Source: Pirellulales bacterium (GTDB lineage Bacteria; Planctomycetota; Planctomycetia; Pirellulales; JALHPA01). Taken from it: DNA of 64,000 bases. The translations under genes were made by a program, and so were the position numbers. Position 1 is the stretch's first letter, and each line of letters opens with the position of its first letter. The stretch covers positions 62,001 through 126,000 of the forward strand of contig JANRLT010000008.1 in the NCBI GenBank assembly GCA_033762255.1, given 5' to 3'. Of the stretch, positions 29,622 to 45,977 are shown in pieces. The notes under the pieces were generated by a model. The model had not been told where the DNA came from. It ran no database searches and saw only the letters and a program-made list of their open reading frames with translations.

Positions 29622-30293
29622 TCACCCCCGCCTCAGTATCCTCCACACGGTGGATGCGTGCCATAGGCGGCCTTTGCCGCGGCAGCGGATTTTTGAATCA
29701 TTCAGCCGCGTGGCGATGGCGGAGGCCCCCAGCCCTTGGGCGTGCAAGTTGCGGATGAGCCGCAGGGTCGATTGCTCGTCCGGCACGGGCAGCAGTTTTT
29801 TGCCAACTTTACGGTAACCATACGGCGGCACGCTGCCCATGGCCCGACCGGCGCTTTGATGGCGCAGCATCATGGCCGAAGTGCGCGAGCGGCTAAGCTC
29901 CCGCTGCATTTCGGCCAGCGCCGCAAAGACCGTGCTGACAAACCGGGCCGTGGGATTGTCCGTCATGCTCCAGTCCCCTTCGCTAATTGACACGAGCTTA
30001 GCCCCTTTGCGTTCAATCTCACGGGCCAGCACAATCGACCATTCCGCGTCCCGGGCCAGGCGGCTCCAGTCCCGCACGACCAGGCGATCCCCACGTTTAA
30101 GCTCGGCCAGCGCTGTAAATAGTCCAGCCCGCTCACGGTCGGCCCCTGATATGTCGCGGTCGGCATAGTGGGCCTTGACGGACCAGCCCTGCCGAGCCGC
30201 CCAAGCGTCGATCTCAGCCCACTGCCGCTCGACACTGTGGCAATCTTGTGCGTTGGGCCTGGGGGAGAAGCGGGCGTAGGCGATGATGGGCAT
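29622..30293 (-). CDS. serine recombinase (resolvase/invertase family)
   Basis: About 223 residues from the ATG at 30293, which has AAGGAG nine bases upstream. The catalytic domain opens MPIIAYARFSP with Ser10 as nucleophile and Arg8, and continues DRDISGADRERAGL, VVRDWSRLARDAEW (active-site Arg region) and RFVSTVFAALAEMQREL. After the long helix comes GSVPPYGYRK and a small HTH end (GASAIATRLNDSKI). It is shorter than large serine integrases, so a resolvase or invertase role on the element is more likely than integration. It is the last gene of the minus-strand element operon. Confidence 0.88.
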   Translation of the reverse strand: MPIIAYARFSPRPNAQDCHSVERQWAEIDAWAARQGWSVKAHYADRDISGADRERAGLFTALAELKRGDRLVVRDWSRLARDAEWSIVLAREIERKGAKLVSISEGDWSMTDNPTARFVSTVFAALAEMQRELSRSRTSAMMLRHQSAGRAMGSVPPYGYRKVGKKLLPVPDEQSTLRLIRNLHAQGLGASAIATRLNDSKIRCRGKGRLWHASTVWRILRRG

Positions 30294-30304
30294 AGGGGGG
30301 CTCC

Positions 30305-30547
30305 TTACTTGGTAAACGACATATCGTGCAAGCACTGAAAATAGCCGGCCGCGAACCCTTTAAGGTGTTCTACTTCTTCGGGGGGGACGCCCACGGCTTC
30401 CACTTCGTAAGTTTCCTCGTCGCCTTCAATAAGATAGTCACCCTGTTTGGTGAGGGTGAATTCCCAAGCGGGGCACTCCTCTTGCAGTGCCTTGTGGAGA
30501 CGGTCGGCCAAATCATCATATACGGTAGTGACTAAAACGAGCGGCAT
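30305..30547 (-). CDS. small acidic protein, unknown
   Basis: 80 residues with GGAGG a few bases before the ATG at 30547. It is acidic, with alternating beta/alpha pattern (MPLVLVTTVYDDLADRLHKA; YLIEGDEETYEVEAVGVPPE; LKGFAAGYFQCLHDM). I do not recognise the family. It is 11 bases upstream of the recombinase gene, so co-translated with it, and could be a partner or an unrelated cargo protein. Confidence 0.6.
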   Translation of the reverse strand: MPLVLVTTVYDDLADRLHKALQEECPAWEFTLTKQGDYLIEGDEETYEVEAVGVPPEEVEHLKGFAAGYFQCLHDMSFTK

Positions 30548-35509: not shown

Positions 35510-35809
35510 ATGTTAAATGAGCAAGAAGCGCTCGACAGTCTGCGTCGGCTGAAGCCGGTCAAGGCCAAACGAATTGGTACGGATGCCCGAGGAGCGGCCC
35601 AGATTCTCGGAGTGGCACAATCAACCCTGGCAGAGTGGCAGCGTCAAGGCAAGGTGCCATTTTGCAAAATCGGCGGGAGAGTTTTCTATTCGCTTTCGGC
35701 CCTGAAAACCTGGCTGGCGGAACTCTGCAATCGGCGAGCGGCGGTGGAACTCGAACCCCGCCCAAAAGGCAAGAAGGCCAAGCGGAATCAACCGACGGGA
35801 ACTCAATAA
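35510..35809 (+). CDS. excisionase/MerR-like HTH DNA-binding protein
   Basis: 99 residues with AAAGGAG before the ATG. The core TDARGAAQILGVAQSTLAEW, then QRQGKVPFCKIGGRVFYSLSALKTWL is the helix-turn-helix 'HTH_17' excisionase fold (an AAxxLGVsxxTlxxW..G.iPxxxigrrvfy pattern). The basic tail (KGKKAKRNQPTG) could add DNA affinity. It may direct excision of the element or regulate the downstream primase gene, 25 bases away. Confidence 0.85.
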   Translation: MLNEQEALDSLRRLKPVKAKRIGTDARGAAQILGVAQSTLAEWQRQGKVPFCKIGGRVFYSLSALKTWLAELCNRRAAVELEPRPKGKKAKRNQPTGTQ

Positions 35810-35834: not shown

Positions 35835-38453
35835 ATGCAATTATACAACCGAGATAACGTTTTACGAACACAGCAGACCCTTTGCGAATCCGGCGGCACA
35901 TTTGAAATTCGGATACTTGATGGCGTGACCGCAAGCGATAAACGGAGCAAAGTTTATTCGGGTTATTTTGATTCTCCGCATGCAGCGGTGAATGCCCTGG
36001 CTGAGCAGCGATTTGTTTCGTGGAAGGGGTGCTATGTCACACCGAACCCAGTGAAACCCGACCTACTAGCCCGGGCGGTGAACAAATTTAAAAGCGGCAT
36101 TAAATCGGCCAGTGATAGCGATATTGTTTCACGTCGATGGTTACTGATTGACGTTGACCCAAAACGCCCGGCGGAAACTTCAAGCTCCGATGCCGAACAC
36201 GCGGCGGCGGCTGAAAGAATTAATGCTATCGACAATTGGCTCTGGGAAAGATTCCAGTACCCGCCCGCGATCGTGGCGGATAGTAGCAACGGTGCCCATG
36301 CCCTCTATAGAATCGACCTGCCCGCCGATGATGACGGGATAATTAAGAAAGTGCTAAAAGCAATTGCCCACGAATGGGACGATGAAACTTGCAAGGTGGA
36401 TTGCAGCGTTTTTAACCCCGCGAGAATCTGGCGGCTATACGGCACGATAACTTGCAAAGGAGACTCAGACGGAGACAAGCTCACACCCGCCCGACCTTGG
36501 CGAACAAGCAAGATTCTAGTTCGGCCCGATGCCTTGCGAGTGGTAACTCGTGAGCAATTGGAGGCGGTAGCAGCACTTGCCCCACAGCCCCAGCAACCGG
36601 CCCCACAGGCCCGGGTGAACGGCTATCGTGGTAATAGGCAGTTTGACCTGGACGCCCTCTTGGCACGTGCTCCGTTTGAAATACGCGGCCCACAGCCCTA
36701 CCAAGGTGGCTCTAAGTGGATCATGCCCGTGTGCCCGCGCAACCCGGAGCATAACAAGGGCGAAGCGTTTATCATTCGGCGACCGGATGGAACCATTCAA
36801 GCCGGATGCCAGCATAACAGTTGCCAGCAATTCGGCTGGCATGATTTACGGGACATTCTGGACCCGGGCTGGCGCGAACGCAAAGCCGACCGGCAAACAA
36901 GCGGGGCTTGGAAAGATGCGGCCAATGGCCGGGTAAATGGCAAGCCCTACAACGCCCCCCCTCTGCGGGCAATCCCGCCGGATAGCGGCTGGGTGCCGTT
37001 TCCTGCGGGGGCTTTGCCGAAAAATGCCCGCGATTATGTGCGGGAACAAGCCGAGCAAATTCAGTGCGACGAAGCGTATTTGGCTTTGCCCCTCTTGGCT
37101 CTGGCGGGGAGTGCAATCGGGGCAACGCGGCGGCTACGATTAACCCCAAGCTGGACGGTCCCCCCGATACTTTGGGTGGCCGTACTCGGGGAGAGCGGAC
37201 GCAAGAAAAGCCCGGCCCTAATCGCAATAAAAAATCTGGTTATGAAGCGACAGGAAAAGGAGTTTCGGGATTTTGAACAGCATGAAAGCGAATTTCAGGA
37301 ACATCAAATACGCTACGAAAAGGAGCTTGCGGCGTGGAAGAAAAATACCAAACAGGATGGCGAACCGCCCCCCACTAAGCCCAAGGCCCCGATAGCCCGG
37401 CGGTATTTGGTGGAAGATTGCACGCTGGAAACACTTGCCAAAATCCTCAAGGAAAATCCCCGGGGGGTGCTGCGATACAGTGAGGAACTGGGAAGCTGGC
37501 TCTCGTTTGGCGAATACAAAAAAGATTCGCGGGGCGACCTAAACAGGTGGCTTAGTTTGTGGAATGGCGACAGCGTAACAATCGACCGCTCAAGCCACTC
37601 GCAACGGACAACGCACATTCCGCAAACGGCGATTAGTATTTTTGGTGGAACGCAACCCGAGACGCTGGCGGCGACGTTTGGGCGGCAGGAACTGGCCAGC
37701 GGATTAGCGGCCAGACTGCTATTCTGTCAGCCCCCGGCCCGCCTAAGCGTTTGGCTGGACGATTACCCGCCCCTGCAATTTGAGCAACCCATACGGGAGC
37801 GAATTCGGGACTTGCAAGATTTGGAATTCAAAAACGGGGGGCAGTTTGAACCCCACGATTTTGGCGGAACAGACTTGGTGATTCACGCCCCCGAACCCAG
37901 CGACGGCGAAAATGAGCCAGTGGAGCTGGTTTTTTCCGATGATGCCAAGCCGATTTGGCGGGATTTTTATAACGCCCACAATCGGGAGACGTTTGACCTC
38001 TCGGGGAACTTGGCGGCGGCGTTTAGTAAGCTGGAAGCATACGCCCCCAGGCTAGCCCTCATCTTACAATTGATCAGTAATCCCCAGGCCCGGGAAGTTG
38101 GCAAGCATGCCCTCTTGGCGGCTATTCGTTTGGTTGAGTGGTTTAAGCATGAGGCAACGCGGCTGTACGGGCAACTGTCCCTCAGCCCAGAGCAACGGGA
38201 AACACAACAGACAATCTCGCTAATTCAGCGGCGCGGGGGACGTATAACCCACCGGGAGCTAATGCGGCGGGATAAGCGATTTGAGACAGCGGAAGCGGCG
38301 GAAAGCTTTTTGCAGCAATTGGTCGATGGCGGATTAGGGCTTTGGGAACCGGTGCCCCCAGGCCCCAAGGGTGGCCGACCGGCACGTGAATTTGTGTTAG
38401 CACAAGAGGTTACAGCCCCCCCCTCAAATCCTGCCCAAGCGGGGATGCGGTGA
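35835..38453 (+). CDS. element replication protein: primase-like N-terminus plus DUF3987 helicase-like domain
   Basis: 872 residues. The N-terminal third has the archaeo-eukaryotic-primase-like pattern LLIDVDPKRP (about 103-112), VADSSNGAHALY (147-158), and DCSVFNPARIWRLYG, matching AEP/primpol proteins of mobile elements. A small zinc-binding segment with C300, H306, C325 and C330 follows (PVCPRNPEHNK, AGCQHNSCQ). From about 380 on is a DUF3987-type domain with GESGRKKSP (452-460, Walker A-like), VLRYSEELGSWLS (Walker B-like) and SIFGGTQPETLA. Such fusions initiate replication of plasmids, satellites and integrative elements. It overlaps the next gene by four bases. Confidence 0.85.
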   Translation: MQLYNRDNVLRTQQTLCESGGTFEIRILDGVTASDKRSKVYSGYFDSPHAAVNALAEQRFVSWKGCYVTPNPVKPDLLARAVNKFKSGIKSASDSDIVSRRWLLIDVDPKRPAETSSSDAEHAAAAERINAIDNWLWERFQYPPAIVADSSNGAHALYRIDLPADDDGIIKKVLKAIAHEWDDETCKVDCSVFNPARIWRLYGTITCKGDSDGDKLTPARPWRTSKILVRPDALRVVTREQLEAVAALAPQPQQPAPQARVNGYRGNRQFDLDALLARAPFEIRGPQPYQGGSKWIMPVCPRNPEHNKGEAFIIRRPDGTIQAGCQHNSCQQFGWHDLRDILDPGWRERKADRQTSGAWKDAANGRVNGKPYNAPPLRAIPPDSGWVPFPAGALPKNARDYVREQAEQIQCDEAYLALPLLALAGSAIGATRRLRLTPSWTVPPILWVAVLGESGRKKSPALIAIKNLVMKRQEKEFRDFEQHESEFQEHQIRYEKELAAWKKNTKQDGEPPPTKPKAPIARRYLVEDCTLETLAKILKENPRGVLRYSEELGSWLSFGEYKKDSRGDLNRWLSLWNGDSVTIDRSSHSQRTTHIPQTAISIFGGTQPETLAATFGRQELASGLAARLLFCQPPARLSVWLDDYPPLQFEQPIRERIRDLQDLEFKNGGQFEPHDFGGTDLVIHAPEPSDGENEPVELVFSDDAKPIWRDFYNAHNRETFDLSGNLAAAFSKLEAYAPRLALILQLISNPQAREVGKHALLAAIRLVEWFKHEATRLYGQLSLSPEQRETQQTISLIQRRGGRITHRELMRRDKRFETAEAAESFLQQLVDGGLGLWEPVPPGPKGGRPAREFVLAQEVTAPPSNPAQAGMR

Positions 38454-38493
38454 CACAACCCCATGATTTGGCCGAGTTTAGGGGTTGTGTCAC
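38450..38493. repeat. inverted repeat GTGACACAACC, copy 1
   Basis: GTGACACAACCCC (38450-38462) and GGGGTTGTGTCAC (38481-38493), perfect 13-base arms and 18-base spacer. A second, related copy lies at 39022-39066. Recognition site for recombinase, integrase or replication initiator is the likely use. Confidence 0.75.
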
Positions 38494-38686
38494 TGTCATC
38501 CATGGTAGTGATCCTAAAAACGATGTCCCCGAAAACCTGGATGATTCCCTGGATGATGCCAATTTCGAGCTTGCCAAGTTGGGGTACCTGGATGATCAAG
38601 ATACAGCAGAGGAAGTAAAGGCATTTGTGGATGAACTTGAATTTTACAAGTGCCAGCCCCCAGCACGGGAAATTTTGGCAATCTAA
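38450..38686 (+). CDS. small acidic protein overlapping the primase gene
   Basis: 78 residues; its GTG start at 38450 overlaps the upstream stop codon in a GTGA, which implies coupled translation. It is acidic (DPKNDVPENLDDSLDDANFE). Its first codons lie inside the left arm of an inverted repeat (38450-38493), so a stem in the mRNA would sit on its start. No family is recognised. It may be a real small gene or part of a regulatory repeat region. Confidence 0.5.
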   Translation: MTQPHDLAEFRGCVTVIHGSDPKNDVPENLDDSLDDANFELAKLGYLDDQDTAEEVKAFVDELEFYKCQPPAREILAI

Positions 38687-39116
38687 ATGCCCCGAAATCG
38701 TGGGGAGAAGATAATGGGTTATTTGACTCGGGAAACATAGGTAGTGATTAAGGGCAGGATAGTGTGTGCCTGGCAATTTGCTACTTAACCGATAGAATTG
38801 GGTAATGAGCAAGCACCCCCCCCGACTATCGCTGAACAGTTGAAATCGGCCAATAGTGCCGTTGGCCGCGCAAGGTACAGAATCGCGATTGATGCCCAGA
38901 TAGCGCATAAAAACGCTATCACGATCTTGTAACGGTGAACGGGGACTGATTTGAGACTCACTAGAGCGATTAACCAAAACACTCGTATCGGTGATGACAA
39001 ACCAAAGCAATCACAGACTCGGTGACACAACCTCATAATACTGGGGAAATACTAAGGTTGTGTCACGGTCACGCTTAACAAACATTCCAAAAACCAATTT
39101 TCGTAGCGAGCAAAAA
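38687..39116. other. stretch between the small acidic gene and the integrase gene
   Basis: About 430 bases with no supported gene. Its only clear feature is the second GTGACACAACC inverted repeat at 39022-39066, just before the integrase start. The opposite-strand frame over 38785-39036 has no ribosome site. Confidence 0.45.
39022..39066. repeat. inverted repeat GTGACACAACC, copy 2
   Basis: GTGACACAACCT (39022-39033) and AGGTTGTGTCAC (39055-39066), perfect 12-base arms and 21-base spacer. The 11-base core equals that of the copy at 38450-38493, so the core occurs four times as two head-to-head pairs, 50 bases before the chosen integrase start. Confidence 0.75.
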
Positions 39117-40391
39117 ATGGCCAGTGTCCAAAGAATGGCAAACGGAGCTTTTCGGGTGCAATTTGTGATGCCAGACCGTAGTAGAAGCTCACTTAACCTG
39201 GGTGGGGTACCAGAGCGTTTTGCTAATAAAATGGCGGAGCATATCGACGAAATCCTACACAGTCGTAAAAAGGGATACCCCTTAGCCCGCGACACAATCG
39301 CCTGGATCAGGGAATTAACTCCTGAAATAAGGGAAAAGCTCTCAGCCGTGGGGTTGCTCGAAAAGACTTCCGACATACATCTGGGACCGTTTGTCAGACA
39401 ATATATCGAGAAGCGAACAGACCTTAAATGGCGAAGCCGAAATAACTTGGAACAGGCGGCAGGTTGCTTGATTCAATTTTTTGGGGAGCAATGCTTGCTC
39501 TCTGAAATTACCGATGCAAAAGCCGTGGAATACTCCATTTGGTTGAGGGGAAAACGTGGACTTTCGAAGGCGACCGCGAACCGTCATACAGCCCGAGCCA
39601 AGCAGTTTTTCATTCATGCGGTGAAAGATAAATTGCTATCCGAGAATCCATTCACACAATTTAAGAAGCTCAAGGTGCGCTCGAACCCAGAACGCGCCTA
39701 TTTTATAGACCGCCCCACATACGAAAAACTGTTAGCCAATTGTCCGAATCAAAGGTGGCGGGCAATTTTAGCATTTGCCCGCATAGCTGGTTGCCGGATT
39801 GATAGTGAAATTAAGCGCATGACCTGGGGTGACATTCACTGGCAATCAGGGAAAGTGTTAATCTATTCCCCCAAAACTGAACATCACGAAGGGCAAGATA
39901 AACGCTGGGTACCTTTATTTCCTGAATTGCGTGCCGAGCTAGAACTTCTATTTGAGGAACACGGCAAGCCCGCTAAACGCCCCACGCAGAGCGTATTCGG
40001 TTCATCCCCCGAGGATTGCAAGAATTTACGAACGCAATTTACCCGCATTATTTCGCGGGCAGGATTGATTCCCTGGCCCAAGCCATTCGTGAACTTGCGA
40101 GCGAGCAGAATCCGGGAACTCAAAGAAACCACCCCCGCCTGGAAAGTTGATAAATGGTGCGGGCACTCAGGGGAAGTGTCGGAGGAATTCTATCTTACTT
40201 TACACGATTCCGATTTTTTAGAAGCAGCAAATGTCTGTGCATTTTCTGACGAACTTATAGACTCGCATGGTATCCGACCAAGCGAGTACCAAAAAGAAAA
40301 CCCCGCGTTTTGCGGGGTATTGGACTCTATTGGATATTATACAAACGTGCAGGTACCCCTACGGGGATTCGAACCCCGGTTTTCGGGCTGA
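39117..40391 (+). CDS. tyrosine recombinase (phage-type integrase)
   Basis: About 424 residues from the ATG at 39117; the open frame reaches 39060, but the earlier start would lie in the inverted repeat. An N-terminal arm/SAM-like domain (DLKWRSRNNLEQAAGCLIQF) precedes the catalytic domain with AGCRIDSEIKRMTWGDI (Arg box I, about R227), K near 253 (SPKTEHH), NLRASR (box II Arg328; the usual His three before is Val, as in some planctomycete integrases), WCGHSG (His350) and SEEFYLTL (Tyr359 nucleophile). Its last codons are read from tRNA-Glu sequence (VQVPLRGFEPRFSG). It integrates the island in that tRNA gene. Confidence 0.9.
   Translation: MASVQRMANGAFRVQFVMPDRSRSSLNLGGVPERFANKMAEHIDEILHSRKKGYPLARDTIAWIRELTPEIREKLSAVGLLEKTSDIHLGPFVRQYIEKRTDLKWRSRNNLEQAAGCLIQFFGEQCLLSEITDAKAVEYSIWLRGKRGLSKATANRHTARAKQFFIHAVKDKLLSENPFTQFKKLKVRSNPERAYFIDRPTYEKLLANCPNQRWRAILAFARIAGCRIDSEIKRMTWGDIHWQSGKVLIYSPKTEHHEGQDKRWVPLFPELRAELELLFEEHGKPAKRPTQSVFGSSPEDCKNLRTQFTRIISRAGLIPWPKPFVNLRASRIRELKETTPAWKVDKWCGHSGEVSEEFYLTLHDSDFLEAANVCAFSDELIDSHGIRPSEYQKENPAFCGVLDSIGYYTNVQVPLRGFEPRFSG
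40291..40319 (-). terminator. tRNA-Glu terminator embedded in the integrase gene
   Basis: Read leftward, ACCCCGC and GCGGGGT form a seven-base stem with a short AAAAC-type loop followed by TTTTCTTTTT, a textbook rho-independent terminator 35 bases beyond the tRNA-Glu 3' end. It is antisense to the last codons of the integrase (ENPAFCGV). The element side of the junction therefore supplies the terminator for the host tRNA. Confidence 0.82.
40354..40391. other. probable attachment site (attR-like) in the tRNA-Glu 3' end
   Basis: The overlap of integrase gene and tRNA 3' half is the standard place of an island attachment core; the exact core cannot be defined without the other end. I looked for a second copy of the segment TACCCCTACGGGGATTCGAA to the left in the window and did not see one. 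Confidence 0.6.
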
Positions 40392-40426
40392 GAACCCGAC
40401 GTCCTGGGCCTCTAGACGATAGGGGC
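40354..40426 (-). tRNA. tRNA-Glu (anticodon CTC)
   Basis: 73 bases without encoded CCA. The acceptor GCCCCTA pairs with TAGGGGT (first pair G-T), the anticodon stem TCGGG/CCCGA holds loop TTCTCAG with anticodon CTC, and the T arm is CGGGG-TTCGAAT-CCCCG. It reads codon GAG. Its 3' half lies inside the 3' end of the integrase gene (up to 40391), which marks the attachment site. Confidence 0.93.
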
Positions 40427-45876: not shown

Positions 45877-45977
45877 GCAGGAAAGACAAGCCTAAGGCCT
45901 GTTTTTACCGTTTCCTGGGATGAACTTAACTCCAAAGCGGAACGGTGTCAGGAGTTAAGAGAGCTTGTCTTTCCTGC
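45877..45977. repeat. 100-base nested inverted repeat, small-RNA- or MITE-like
   Basis: Perfect 15-base outer arms (45877-45891 and 45963-45977) and a nested nine-base stem CTTAACTCC/GGAGTTAAG (45925-45933 and 45951-45959). ATTTTTT follows on the right. No target-site duplication is clear, so a folded RNA with a terminator-like end is as likely as a transposable element. Confidence 0.6.

Follow-up and report, generated by a model that had tools for sequence, protein, structure and literature searches.

Element-specific inverted repeats beside DUF3987 genes as predicted initiator binding sites and a candidate replication origin of planctomycete islands

Where a DUF3987 gene gives way to a tyrosine integrase gene in a Pirellulales bacterium, two related inverted repeats (dyads) raise the question of which protein recognizes them and for what purpose. 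The window, meaning the whole 64-kb stretch of DNA analyzed, corresponds to C8:62001-126000 of a 5.5-Mb draft genome. Dyad 1 has 13-bp arms (GTGACACAACCCC/GGGGTTGTGTCAC) around an 18-nt spacer and overlaps both the DUF3987 stop codon (38453) and the GTG with which a small open reading frame (ORF) begins. Dyad 2 has 12-bp arms and a 21-nt spacer, and 50 bp separate its end from the likely integrase ATG (Table 1). The 11-mer half-site GTGACACAACC occurs exactly four times in the window, twice per dyad, and when one mismatch is allowed there are five matches compared with 0.9 expected, a number reached by none of 100 dinucleotide shuffles. The initial annotation had reported these dyads and the fourfold core, and its positions, arm and spacer lengths and the placement of one dyad just before the integrase are all exact. 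Its direct orientation of the two dyads agrees with the left arms, where 18 of 20 bases match, although the arms of a perfect dyad are themselves directionless, and the small gene on whose start it placed dyad 1 does begin with the overlapped GTG, but is a frame-shifted tail of the DUF3987 protein. Besides dyads 1 and 2, the draft genome contains no exact dyad of the GTGACACAACC type; a near copy (GTGACAGAACC...GGTTGTGTCAC) forms a third dyad at C8:49828-49872, outside the window and 226 bp inward from the far island end.

The island itself ends at an attachment (att) repeat formed by the 3' end of tRNA-Glu, 1.3 kb from the dyads; the motif is absent from this repeat, and the att cores contain no dyads, the att regions carrying other repeats. 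A 26-base copy of the tRNA-Glu 3' end and flank is found at C8:49577-49602, so that the island would be about 53 kb long and reach beyond the window. The N-terminal part of its DUF3987 protein is probably a primase, and with an out-of-frame DUF3987 tail and a frame-shifted helix-turn-helix (HTH) gene the island may be decaying. Several further observations were made around its borders. A right-end-like copy at C8:49527-49602, outside the window, resembles 40290-40366 in its terminator-like hairpin, direct repeats and att core, and such a right end without an integrase, upstream of the left end of the island, suggests a second island in tandem integration at tRNA-Glu. The integrase open frame crosses the att core into the tRNA gene in both islands of this genome (39060-40391; L019:6140-7495), hence its C-terminal tail would differ between the integrated and circular forms. 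A serine recombinase gene between the two att cores (29622-30335, minus strand) may point to another element nested inside the island, and a CyVA-1 RNA match (Rfam, 43 bits, just above threshold) is located outside the island at 45888-45966.

Table 1. Features around the two dyads, with positions counted in the window.
Feature	Position	Strand	Basis or remark
AlpA-like HTH_17 protein	35510-35809	+	PF12728 E 1.7e-9; upstream of DUF3987 gene
DUF3987 protein, 872 aa, predicted replication initiator	35835-38453	+	Pfam PF13148 E 2.4e-64; PHROG 'DNA helicase' E 5e-31
DUF3987 helicase domain, aa 410-779			followed by C-terminal winged helix
C-terminal winged helix coding region, aa 785-862	38187-38420	+	AlphaFold2 model, winged-helix matches
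aa 800-824 (strand, helix 2, turn)	38232-38306	+	coevolution scan; variation follows dyad arms
Dyad 1, predicted initiator binding site	38450-38493; half-sites 38450-38460 (+), 38483-38493 (-)		directly behind DUF3987 gene; counterpart at same place in C21 island and many other DUF3987 genes
Small ORF	38450-38686	+	counterpart of C-terminal DUF3987 tail (in frame in C21 island; out of frame here)
Cro/C1-type HTH gene remnant between dyads	38806-39010	+	intact (67 aa) in C21 island; frame-shifted and stopped here
Dyad 2, second predicted initiator site	39022-39066; half-sites 39022-39032 (+), 39056-39066 (-)		just before integrase gene; counterpart before integrase of C21 island
Tyrosine integrase	39117-40313	+	PF13102, PF00589; 49% identical to C21 integrase
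Right attachment core, tRNA-Glu 3' end	40341-40366	.	identical 26-mer at far end of island
tRNA-Glu (CTC), integration target	40352-40426	-

A sister island is present on contig C21 of the same genome, where a complete 8.6-kb element at tRNA-Asn, bounded by TTCGAGTCCTACCGGGGGAGC repeats, encodes an AlpA-like protein, a DUF3987 protein (76% identical to that of the window), an HTH protein and an integrase. Its dyads are in the same two places, behind the DUF3987 gene and before the integrase and in the same order, but with different arms (GTGACAnnACCC). A third C21 dyad near the left end (C21:332523-332567), 77 bp upstream of the first gene of the operon, is the counterpart of the far-end dyad of the window island.

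As a rule, no such dyad precedes the remaining integrases of this genome or those of other planctomycetes, which first suggested a private repeat, until anchoring the search on DUF3987 revealed a family. A gene was counted as having a strong dyad if the best one lying no more than about 190 bp from where its conserved region ends scored at least 10. Of 42 genes (two of this genome and 40 of other genomes in the same order), 24 have such a dyad immediately after the part that encodes DUF3987 and the winged helix; the corresponding rates are 2.8% for random control windows drawn from these loci and 0.8% for dinucleotide shuffles. In a second set, consisting of 40 further DUF3987 genes from the same taxonomic class (Planctomycetia) that were not used in finding the effect, 15 genes have a strong dyad (controls, 5%), bringing the sample to about 80 genes, and about 40-60% of DUF3987 genes are without one in the interval tested. 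Repeats directly downstream of the gene, the positional feature of a helicase-initiator origin, are thereby found in both sets. Two matched dyads occur also at a prophage-like locus (G506:C3), where a methylase and a terminase are encoded downstream and no integrase gene adjoins. At further strong-dyad loci, too, the stretch examined contains no related integrase. The dyad region had no match in plasmids, the exact pattern and a DUF3987 alignment had none in viral contigs, and the integrase protein, searched by peptide patterns, had none in genome contigs.

The arms vary by element (GTTGAC, GTCTAC, GGTAAC, GGTGACA, TGTCAGTG, GGAATC, CCATCACC or ATCTAGGAG), and a second dyad with the same arms (similarity of at least 8) is present in 10 of 33 elements, compared with 2% of between-element comparisons. 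More same-arm pairs were found in the second set (L157, L160, L163, L167, L173, and L182), and four copies each exist of TGTCAGTGAAACC in L138 and of ATCTAGGAG in L145. Usually the second dyad precedes the end dyad by about 1.4-1.5 kb, which places it at the N-terminal border of the DUF3987 domain; alternatively the distance is about 2.1 kb, near the gene start, and both places are as a rule within the open frame. Spacer length varies between 11 and 49 nt without an apparent helical phase; spacers carry GAAA on the coding strand in 30 of 51 cases and TTTC in seven, and dyad 2 of the window, a non-coding one, has GAAA as well. Some arms are built of tandem 6-9 bp units and are iteron-like, e.g., CGTTGACAG CGTTGACAG TGACA in L115. 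Separately, a palindrome with 28-bp arms was observed behind the DUF3987 gene of L144, composed of tandem TGTCTACA units with a 9-bp period. As the half-site is repeated within an element and divergent between elements, the 'binding sites' of the initial annotation are well supported by the sequence pattern, while its alternative of recombination sites is not.

A candidate for the protein that binds them is the DUF3987 protein, as the arms co-vary with its winged helix. In the first set, once the helicase domain is corrected for, similarity of arms correlates with that of the winged helix (partial Mantel 0.31, P 0.0005), compared with 0.11 (P 0.07) for the reverse correction, and for all 51 elements the values are 0.27 (P 0.0005) for the winged helix and 0.13 (P 0.01) for the helicase domain, these tests correcting for shared ancestry only roughly. 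The second set alone gave partial values of similar size, 0.18 for the winged helix and 0.22 for the helicase domain, so that the contrast between the two domains is not independently replicated at the domain level; in this validation set the winged helix is favored by a 15-residue scan only, in which the window of aa 800-814 gave the top correlation of about 90 windows in the training and validation sets alike. In an AlphaFold2 model (mean pLDDT 75), the best segment falls on the first strand, helix 2 and turn of the winged helix (aa 803-818), and the top correlation is thus with helix 2 and the turn, although recognition is usually by helix 3. Comparing the fold of this domain gave generic winged-helix matches only, and a sequence comparison with solved structures returned nothing reliable. 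Taken together, the co-variation and the modeled fold support a C-terminal domain that would recognize the dyad repeats.

The dyads are therefore best read as probable element-specific binding sites of the island's own DUF3987 initiator, which, as such, would mark its replication origin. This reading is based on position, within-element repetition, between-element divergence and co-variation with the winged helix, from which we infer that the protein binds the dyads, loads helicase rings and initiates replication there. Speaking against it are the variable spacers, the DUF3987 genes without a strong dyad, the domain-level result of the validation set, the location of the best segment outside helix 3 and, from the search described below, exact motifs away from DUF3987 and CyRepA1 genes that mostly have no paired dyads. 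Once the island has excised, the inverted GTGACACAACC half-sites would be bound by the winged helix, a pair of helicase rings would assemble head to head across the spacer, and the loaded dyad would be the starting point of replication; the dyad ahead of the integrase and the one near the far island end may serve as auxiliary or autoregulatory sites. DUF3987 helicases occur widely among satellites, prophages and integrative islands. The dyads would provide a concrete candidate origin for dozens of elements, a means to predict which elements share replication specificity, and, in combination with the winged helix, a protein-DNA recognition code potentially readable from sequence.

Autoregulation leads to the best-surviving alternative, namely that the dyads are operators for a small repressor, either the HTH protein encoded between them or the AlpA-like protein, which would silence the integrase and the operon. 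The placement of dyad 2 next to the integrase start, of dyad 1 ahead of the HTH gene and of the left-end dyad of C21 ahead of its operon would in each case suit a repressor, but many second dyads are located inside the DUF3987 coding sequence, 1.4-2.1 kb before the end of the domain, dyads exist where no such HTH gene follows, the HTH gene of the window is broken while the arms are intact, and it is the DUF3987 winged helix with which the arms co-vary. An operator function in place of an origin is thus rather unlikely; the two roles are compatible, however, since an initiator might in addition act as repressor of the operon that encodes it.

Less probable still, and on balance improbable, is that the functional form is a hairpin in mRNA or single-stranded DNA, as in a structured origin of the pRN1 type or an RNA element. 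The arms do remain complementary as their sequences diverge, stems reach 17-28 bp (L120 and L144), and the origin of pRN1 depends on its stem-loop. However, in 15 two-dyad elements the mates within a dyad agree at 31% of the variable positions and halves of different dyads at 38%, and as mates agree no better than halves from separate dyads, a recognized half-site fits better than a hairpin. With no gain in pairing over half-site identity, the complementarity is explained by one half-site repeated in inverted orientation.

That the dyads are integrase or excisionase sites, or that the segment between them inverts or excises as a unit, as the initial annotation had considered, is highly improbable. 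Dyad 2 adjoins the integrase and the left-end dyad is only 226 bp from an att core, but the order and orientation of the dyads are the same in the sister island, so that nothing suggests a rearranging segment, the true ends of the element are at the tRNA-Glu repeat, and the att regions have repeats of their own. Moreover, dyads are found inside DUF3987 genes and where no integrase follows, and in the 15 elements with an integrase the arms track the integrase less closely (0.18, P 0.06) than they do the winged helix (partial 0.335, P 0.003). Dispersed palindromes of element-specific sequence would also suit a centromere, but segregation (parS-like) or transfer (oriT-like) sites are the least probable reading of all, given that the annotated neighbors include no ParB-, ParA- or relaxase-like gene (the sole ParB-like domain is a methylase fusion in L095) and that the arms co-vary with the helicase protein.

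Beyond DUF3987, a search for the exact dyad of the window in 257 billion bases identified eight loci, three of which are in replication genes, a mixed result. One is a DUF3987 gene already included in the second set (L182, Pirellulales), and two are from the cyanobacterium Symploca. The first of these, assigned by NCBIfam to the CyRepA1 family of plasmid replication genes, has a pair of dyads at a distance of 705 bp and is followed by a terminase; at the second, dyad and flank are closely similar. Another three (two Gemmataceae and one further bacterium) have longer arms and are not near DUF3987, and there are two others. When CyRepA1 genes of cyanobacteria were considered as a second family, most were without paired dyads, which are only occasional (L196 and L235). 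In these two CyRepA1 genes, two same-arm dyads 600-700 bp apart are observed inside or near the gene (L196:1410-1458 and 2115-2163). Longer arms (TTACnGnCnGTGACACAACC) that contain the same 11-mer and do not adjoin DUF3987 are observed at L192:71-149, L195:143-223 and L198:617-694, one of which precedes a tyrosine-recombinase-like open frame.

If the helicase and winged-helix module often has a pair of self-recognized dyads around it, one at the gene start or N-terminal border and one directly behind, then initiator specificity and target sites would form one transferable cassette. We propose this only tentatively, as a doubtful extension of the origin reading, together with a readable code between helix 2 and the half-site, in which REVQQG would pair with GTCTAC and RDLMR with GTTGACA, for example.

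By analogy, the proposed system would be of a kind already known, as helicase-initiator origins have precedents in SaPI, SCC, P4 and pRN1 replicons; for DUF3987 helicases, no origin was found in the literature searched. The alpha protein of phage P4 is a fused primase-helicase with a winged-helix origin-binding domain, and acts on more than one site, ori and crr. It has short iterons and a primase of another type, and the likeness drawn here is one of architecture. In phage lambda, the origin is within the coding sequence of the initiator gene O, similar to the dyads inside DUF3987 genes, but the protein is unrelated and the sites are direct iterons. PICMI phage satellites of Vibrionaceae are small islands with an integrase, an AlpA-like regulator and a DUF3987 primase (PMC10803314), a gene content present in both the window and C21 islands. 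However, PICMI have other hosts, their model also requires a Fis regulator gene as neighbor, and their fis-adjacent integration site is not matched by the tRNA-Glu and tRNA-Asn targets here; searching the text of that study (PMC10803314) gave no inverted repeats or iterons. A C-terminal winged helix has been proposed as the origin recognizer in primase families that include DUF3987 fusions (PMC5862659). The origin of pRN1 is a required stem-loop behind a primase-helicase-winged-helix gene (ORF904), and in pRN1, as in phage BIP-1 and here, the palindrome directly follows the gene and is not conserved in sequence (PMC4234260). pRN1 differs in its SF3 helicase and one large (about 100-nt) stem-loop, in contrast to DUF3987 and several dyads in which half-site identity is favored over pairing; stem pairing conserved beyond that identity, the pRN1-type feature, was not found, and the dyads may nevertheless work alike. 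The SaPI and SCC origins adjoin the 3' side of the helicase gene and are bound by the C-terminal domain of the helicase, the SCC origin being located between the helicase and recombinase genes (PMC7581432). These replicons have another helicase family and short direct repeats, in contrast to the widely spaced inverted half-sites here, copies of which are, unlike in SaPI and SCC, also found inside the gene and elsewhere in the island. In both SaPI/PICI Rep and SCC Cch2, as in the DUF3987 islands, a helicase with a C-terminal DNA-binding domain, a predicted one in DUF3987, is followed directly downstream by repeats.
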